From NCBI GenBank assembly GCA_029706075.1, contig JAINUG010000197.1, positions 969,009 through 1,033,008 on the forward strand: a stretch of 64,000 bases of DNA. The letters run 5' to 3'. Origin of the DNA: Aldrovandia affinis. Taxonomy: Eukaryota; Chordata; Actinopteri; Notacanthiformes; Halosauridae. Numbering within the stretch: position 1 is the stretch's first letter; each line of letters starts with the position of its first letter. A program made the translations under genes and the position numbers. The notes under the pieces are model-generated. The model was not told the origin of the DNA. It saw only the letters and a program-made list of their open reading frames with translations, and searched no databases. Positions 1,527 to 51,277 of this stretch are shown here, piece after piece.

Positions 1527-1727
1527 GGCTGCACTCCTGCTTTTCCTGTAAGCAGTCGGAGGGAGAGGTGCGGCGCTGCATGGTACAGCAGTGTGGGAGG
1601 TTCTACCACGAGGTCTGCGCCCGCCTCAGTGCGCTGTCCGTCTTCGAGAGCAAGGGATTCCGCTGCCCGCTGCACACATGCGTCTCTTGCTACTACAACA
1701 CTCGTTCCAAGCTAAAGGCCACCAAAG
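1527..1727 (+). CDS. nsd2: nsd2 exon: PHD2-like zinc finger
   Basis: The acceptor is ctcctgcag and the donor AAAG|GTGAGG. The frame reads [18 protein letters not shown] onward and includes [12 protein letters not shown] and [11 protein letters not shown], zinc-finger cysteines and histidines in the PHD1/PHD2 block. The first two bases complete a glycine codon, and the exon ends in phase 1 (ACC AAA G|). The donor is the first of three copies in a 52-bp tandem repeat, so alternative donors exist at 1780 and 1832; neither keeps the downstream frame. Confidence 0.92.

Positions 1728-51277: not shown

Follow-up and report, generated by a model that had tools for sequence, protein, structure and literature searches.

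Around the exons of nsd2 and letm1 in the fish Aldrovandia affinis, short tandem repeats lie so often at or beside splice sites that the question arises whether splice junctions themselves give rise to tandem duplications or whether ordinary minisatellites are enriched next to exons. Tandem repeats spanning exon-intron boundaries have been described in amphioxus as 'mirage' minisatellites, in the genes for Adh3, globin, PGBD5 and troponin C (PMC3087553, PMC3902484). Accordingly, the fish locus was examined in a window, that is, the whole analysed stretch of 64,000 nt (assembly GCA_029706075.1, contig JAINUG010000197.1, 969,009-1,033,008 of the forward strand), and 100 kb were fetched on each side of it (264 kb in all). 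Coding exons were mapped via human proteins and via splice sites. Arrays were detected using Tandem Repeats Finder (TRF) in a lax setting (period at least 20, score at least 90) and a strict setting (score at least 80).

The window was found to contain 23 coding exons with 44 junctions, close to the approximately 25 exons of the original prediction. These belong to the 3' part of nsd2 (1527-17576, + strand, 11 exons, with a Pfam SET domain for exon 14126) and to the coding region of letm1 (38530-51277, + strand, 12 exons found, with the Pfam domain LETM1_RBD). The 15 residues EELELLKEDVQDYSE of human LETM1 were not found between exons 47685-47774 and 48397-48589 in a tblastn search or in a composition-filtered micro-exon search. 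When protein pieces were used as queries, fgfr3, tacc3, slbp, and nelfa were not found in the 264 kb. At 34933-34998 and about 35022-35079, there is a possible 5' exon of letm1, with an acceptor and a donor that look good by eye, together with a 26-bp-unit array that ends approximately 23 bp before this exon and was left out of the counts. A long inverted repeat with arms of approximately 700 bp was also seen by eye at about 35480-37150, and it looks like a transposon with inverted halves.

Arrays at the junctions of nsd2 and letm1

In the case of nsd2, three arrays were located at junctions, all on the + strand. The first, a 52-bp unit repeated 4.2 times (1719-1935), spans the donor at 1728 of exon 1527-1727 and repeats CCACCAAAG/GTGAGG with nine exonic bases. 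Its second and third copies hold a full-strength donor and its fourth copy lacks the GT, the position-weight scores of the extra donors being 8.2, 8.2, and 2.9 vs 8.2 for the real one. The other two arrays abut their junctions. A 40-bp unit repeated 2.9 times (15809-15924) starts from intron base +4 of the donor at 15806 (exon 15604-15805), and the GT is uncopied; this array was detected by lax TRF and missed by strict TRF. Before the acceptor at 17334 of the last nsd2 exon (17335-17576), a 49-bp unit is repeated 2.5 times (17206-17331), and this array ends 3 bp before the exon according to lax TRF and 28 bp before it according to strict TRF.

In letm1, where all arrays are likewise given on the + strand, two of them span acceptors. 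A 42-bp unit repeated 1.9 times with 94% matches (40881-40960) spans the acceptor at 40953, and the motif TTCCTGA is present at 40868, 40912, and 40954. The extra acceptor at 40911 scored 7.2 vs 8.2 for the real site, and its use would add 14 codons in frame. The second is a duplication of a 105/106-bp unit (two copies, 48228-48440) across the acceptor at 48396, with the second copy 106 bp upstream. Here the extra acceptor at 48290 (score 6.3 vs 7.1 for the real one) is followed by approximately 45 exonic bases, and this extra copy (48291-48335) differs from the used exon by non-synonymous changes. The used copy at 48396 is one base short compared with the extra copy, with GACCTTGAG in the copy at 48291 and GACCTGAG in the used one. 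Exon 48397-48589 measures 193 bp and not the 194 bp that the frame of its neighbors needs, so the acceptor at 48396 breaks the frame; an AG at 48404 would preserve it, and either a sequence error or a real change may be involved.

The remaining letm1 arrays do not copy the splice signal. A 22-bp unit repeated 11.7 times (41249-41506) ends 5 bp before the exon at 41512 (acceptor 41511), and its copies are without an AG. In the same intron, TRF and comparison revealed a degenerate 35-bp array of the same family (41138-41240), and both together occupy most of this 414-bp intron. A 65-bp unit (about 2 x 33 bp) repeated 2.5 times (43398-43565) abuts exon 43585-43755, ending 19 bp before it. Finally, a 63-bp unit repeated 2.3 times (49939-50078) lies in a letm1 intron and had been named among the junction arrays in the original prediction. 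As it lies 119 bp before exon 50198-50336, it does not qualify as a junction array under a 60-bp rule.

Under lax TRF, eight of the ten arrays in the window were located no more than 60 bp from a splice junction, whereas 0.56 were expected (0.70 in a rerun), and this number did not occur once when the arrays were placed at random 4,000 times. Under strict TRF, five of seven arrays were located no more than 30 bp from a junction, with 0.22 expected. The claim that repeats contain or abut splice sites here was thus confirmed. Because 41138-41240 and 41249-41506 form one degenerate family, seven of the eight near-junction arrays are independent. Three of the eight (1719-1935 in nsd2, 40881-40960 and 48228-48440 in letm1) extend across the junction and contain additional splice sites, and the other five start or end 3-40 bp from it with the splice signal uncopied.

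When nine of the window arrays were compared, only 41138-41240 and 41249-41506 were related, and the others gave short, chance-level matches. The units therefore differ in length and are mostly unrelated, as had been stated, except for this pair of one family. None of the ten arrays overlaps high-copy dispersed repeats, and the nsd2 array at 1719-1935, the only one searched genome-wide, had a single genomic match, namely itself. In view of these three results, one dispersed repeat family or a transposon origin was rejected. Richness in C-runs or G-runs was also rejected as a common property because the arrays do not share it. A repeated local process was thereby supported over one dispersed family, and this extends to a third gene and to a genome-wide sample of exons, both described below.

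Because the copies were read from an assembly, it was also considered whether they are false tandem copies produced by assembly or gap filling. The exon at 48397-48589, one base short of the expected frame, could reflect a sequence error, and one amphioxus mirage was aberrantly assembled in a draft genome (PMC3087553). However, substitutions are scattered over the copies, which are not verbatim (window arrays with a score of at least 90 show 66-95% matches), no N is present in the window or in the 200 kb flanking it, one contig of the assembly reaches 25 Mb, and the genes concerned are unrelated and carry units of many different lengths. An artefact of this kind is therefore highly improbable.

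Array density beside exons in and beyond the window

To describe how the arrays are distributed, their coverage was determined by distance from the exon. Between -20 kb and 92 kb around the window, coverage was 13.5% at 1-60 bp, 14.3% at 61-120 bp, and 8.9% at 121-240 bp, and it was 2.2, 4.7, 0.35, 0.5, and 0% in the successive bins beyond 240 bp. For the window arrays, coverage was at most 0.3% at 241-1,000 bp. The remaining 152 kb of the contig stretch showed 2.2% array coverage, which is above that of the mid-intron DNA of the window. Against this baseline, the exon-side excess is approximately sixfold, and the mid-intron DNA of the window is unusually array-poor. High-copy dispersed repeats decreased from approximately 20% overall to 0.9% beside exons. 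When they were excluded, array coverage was 13.6% at 1-60 bp and at most 0.6% beyond 1 kb. As this hardly changed the excess, exclusion of such high-copy transposons from exon-flanking DNA is insufficient by itself and was rejected as the whole cause.

A third gene was called from sequence on the - strand at window-relative 66098-90646. It has 11 exons and encodes a coiled-coil-like protein for which no Pfam match over the cut-off was obtained. Its region contains six arrays, four of which sit at exon edges (p 0.0006 by permutation). Downstream of exon 76762-76930, there are 16 additional donor copies of CACAG/GTAC with flanking exon-like sequence, which score 3.7 vs 5.7 for the real donor. 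Non-synonymous changes set several of these copies apart from the used exon; by eye, the copies nearest the exon resemble it and the distal copies are uniform. Farther out, long minisatellites were seen away from called exons at window-relative 91158-91661 (39 bp x 13) and 120607-121039 (23 bp x 19).

Other exons of nsd genes gave a different picture. In the paralogue nsd3 on another contig, an array was present at 0 of 22 junctions, the edges of which are rough because they were taken from protein matches, and array coverage was 0 within 500 bp of exons and 5.5% at 501-1,000 bp. For five upstream nsd2 exons, an array at the threshold was present at 0 of 10 junctions, and weaker arrays (scores 80 and 83) were located no more than 32 bp from two upstream exon calls. 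From nsd3 and upstream nsd2 it follows that array density varies strongly by locus and that the window represents an extreme cluster.

For the genome-wide sample, Pfam searches of the assembly yielded 138 myosin-head and 143 RhoGAP exon matches (281). From the match tables, 40 myosin and 18 RhoGAP stretches were picked before any sequence was seen (44 and 18 matches; 58 stretches holding 62 of the 281 matches), and 43 and 17 exons, respectively, were resolved, all from these two protein families. Clustered muscle-type myosins, RhoGAP rows with internal stops, and additional exons from RhoGAP genes already represented were passed over; one picked RhoGAP row (in L070) does hold a stop. Stretches L030 and L070 were dropped because no exon could be resolved in them; L027 and L028, although fetched, were left uncounted. 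In L030, an array (score 102-105) overlaps the edge of its match. The exon edges of the sample, the third gene, and upstream nsd2 were obtained using a home-made exon caller, which recovered 16 of the 23 known window exons.

An array touched or lay within 60 bp of 12 of the 120 sample junctions (10%) and of 2.36% of the control points (407 of 17,228), a difference with a binomial p of 3e-5; junctions of the same exon or gene are not independent, and the control points were drawn only from the two fetched contig stretches. By family, 8 of 86 myosin and 4 of 34 RhoGAP junctions had an array. After removal of arrays with more than 85% pyrimidine or purine and of mostly simple-repeat arrays, 9 of 120 junctions remained vs 2.27% (p 0.0017). 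Since these remain and donors are also affected, polypyrimidine tracts were rejected as the whole cause. Counting all junctions outside the window, 16 of 174 had an adjacent array vs approximately 2% of control points (p 4.6e-6). Consequently, the expected excess at splice edges beyond the window was present in the third gene and in the sample, and it was absent from nsd3 and from the upstream nsd2 exons.

These data bear on whether the contig region is a regional hotspot where minisatellites happen to crowd beside exons, in which case the window would be an extreme cluster that says little about the genome at large. The array-free junctions of nsd3 and the upstream nsd2 exons, and a sample rate (10%) lower than that of the window (8 of 44 junctions), are consistent with such a hotspot. 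However, exons on other contigs still carried arrays at 12 of 120 junctions, and the arrays of the window avoid its mid-intron DNA, as their low coverage at 241-1,000 bp indicates. We thus regard a purely regional explanation as distinctly unlikely.

Junction copies and clipping at the exon

As an excess of arrays beside exons and a duplication of the junction itself are different things, the latter was evaluated using a test of whether a 27-base stretch over the junction recurs within 160 bp of intron better than its own shuffles. This was the case for 9 of 218 junctions vs 1.17% of 3,000 control points (p 0.0012), and a first version of the test had given 6 of 74 vs 1.33% of 600 points. The final version missed letm1 48396 and the third-gene exon at 76762, both plain by eye, and the first version caught the latter. 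When restricted to the genome sample, the test found three duplicated junctions among 120 (p 0.17), and one of these is a simple repeat of the CTGT type.

The positions of the arrays were then considered. An array was present at 24 junctions; it spanned 6 of them, and it lay 1-10 bp away from 10 and 11-60 bp away from 8. Of the control points near an array, 72% were inside it, and 16% of the rest were 1-10 bp away. Clipping of random arrays at the exon accordingly predicts approximately 76% at 0-10 bp, and 16 of 24 (67%) were observed. As the observed value is near this prediction, the data need more arrays near exons and not arrays seeded by splice sites. The pile-up of array ends (of the 18 arrays that do not span the junction, 10 lie 1-10 bp from it; p 1e-4) was therefore discarded as proof of seeding because clipping predicts about the same. 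Thus, to describe the arrays as centred on splice junctions, as in the original prediction, is too strong; duplication of the junction itself was not significant in the genome sample, and most arrays abut the junction without copying it.

Outside the window, units that span the exon-intron boundary in the manner of mirages were found at the myosin exons of L043 and L048/L087 and at the third-gene exon 76762-76930. This structure was absent from the window arrays starting at 15809, 17206, 41138, 41249, 43398, and 49939, which lie 3-119 bp from the junction. By position-weight scores, the extra sites of spanning arrays were mostly equal to or somewhat below the real site, and arrays with at least three junction copies occur in three genes on two contigs. 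In L048, the exon caller chose the penultimate array copy, and splice-site arrays indeed mislead exon callers.

A 47-bp unit occurs 14 times at a myosin exon on contig C1780, and each copy contains pyrimidines, CAG, and approximately 24-25 exonic bases. The exon really starts in the last of these copies. The 13 extra acceptors scored 3.2-6.4 vs 4.8 for the real one, and reading on from any of them in the exon frame leads to a stop 23-54 codons later, so that splicing should normally disregard them. In the exonic parts, all four variable positions are synonymous third positions (approximately 0.7% if positions were random, by hand count), and no gradient of exon likeness was seen among the copies by eye. 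The synonymous-only variation of this one case hints that new copies were taken from a constrained exon copy.

That many extra sites are intact, that use of the acceptor at 40911 would lengthen letm1 by 14 residues in frame, and that the C1780 copies vary only at synonymous positions would also agree with selection keeping the extra sites as decoys or as regulatory alternative sites. However, all 13 extra acceptors of C1780 lead to early stops, the letm1 copy at 48291-48335 and several third-gene copies carry non-synonymous changes, and high array identity alone keeps sites intact. Such selection is thus very unlikely.

It was further weighed whether splice junctions themselves seed tandem duplication, through machinery or microhomology at the exon/intron edge, with mirages arising lineage-wide. 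The overall duplication test and its earlier version point in this direction, as do the involvement of both donors and acceptors and the arrays with at least three junction copies in three genes. However, the sample alone gave no significant result (3 of 120, one a simple repeat), the splice signal is uncopied in most arrays, the array positions match clipping of random arrays, and the short repeats that flank two of the units, TTCCTGAGGA and CTGTGTG, are not splice consensus. On balance, seeding by the junction appears unlikely. The same holds for a broader reading, which we consider doubtful, that exon edges serve as templates from which tandem arrays are copied again and again into the neighboring intron, leaving many genes with rows of intact extra splice sites for the cell to ignore. 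If it were true, a genome-wide mirage process, which we found described for amphioxus only, would exist in a vertebrate lineage.

Probable origin of the arrays and related systems

We consider it reasonably probable that the observed arrays, their enrichment, and their intact extra splice sites derive from ordinary minisatellites that are enriched beside exons and stopped at the exon, a minority of them becoming amphioxus-like mirages. Local tandem duplication in the exon-flanking intron would start by slippage between short direct repeats and proceed by unequal exchange. Slippage is suggested by the short direct repeats at two units (TTCCTGAGGA at 40868 and 40954, and CTGTGTG at either end of the unit in C1780), and these flanking repeats may be partial last copies. 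An array reaching the exon would be stopped by coding constraint and hence would end at or within a few bases of the junction, and a duplication including the junction would produce extra splice sites, that is, a mirage. Tolerance of these sites would follow from exon definition, in which the two sites lying on the exon are paired with each other; the outer copies would then leave with the intron. As for the exon-side excess, part of it is probably explained by old, transposon-free DNA beside exons that is shielded from deletion and insertion, and a local mutational bias may explain the rest.

According to the amphioxus reports, mirage units differ in length and are located at 5' or 3' boundaries, many copies hold splice signals, the repeat number varies, regular splicing is reported by the authors to be undisturbed, and the edge copies are left out of homogenisation (PMC3087553, PMC3902484). 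In structure, the proposed likeness to these mirages held for the three window arrays that span a junction and for the arrays of C1780, L043, and the third gene, and it did not hold for the abutting arrays. Unlike the amphioxus repeats, the fish arrays mostly abut without spanning, show an excess over approximately 200 bp of flanking intron, and are described here from the sequence of one assembly. In human factor VII intron 7, a single locus, the repeat units are said to contain a donor site, and this constitutes the likeness to the present arrays. The human IFI6 (6-16) minisatellite, which carries multiple splice donors according to the title of its report (Turri 1995), resembles the nsd2 array at 1719-1935 and the 17 donors of the third gene. 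By that title, the extra donors of IFI6 are provided to the transcript, whereas those of the fish were recognised in genomic DNA. The Rogers model, which is outlined in PMC3087553 and in which introns are gained via tandem duplication of AG/GT sites, shares with the fish arrays a tandem duplication that includes splice signals. However, the fish arrays sit inside introns and no new intron was recognised; the exons flanking them line up with human proteins.

A literature search, with subscription papers mostly outside its reach, found no description of mirages in fish or other vertebrates, which is weak evidence of novelty. A phenomenon of amphioxus genes is hereby extended to a fish, with a rate of 16 of 174 junctions outside the window vs approximately 2% of controls. 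Stated accurately, minisatellites are several-fold enriched in the exon-flanking intron of the sampled genes of this fish, and a minority of them are mirages. Two of the exons, one having 13 extra acceptors and the other 16 extra donors, represent natural experiments on site choice by the spliceosome (exon definition vs scanning), and they also bear on how introns grow or new introns arise.

Two further features were noted among the fetched stretches. TG dinucleotide runs of approximately 145-175 bp or more, being cut by the end of the stretch, were located just downstream of exons in L085 (approximately 404-550) and L034 (approximately 607-783), in addition to the minisatellites. Moreover, L027 (G000:C1823:3248050-3250074) holds an uninterrupted whole-domain myosin-head match in a 1,986-residue open frame and looks like an intronless copy.
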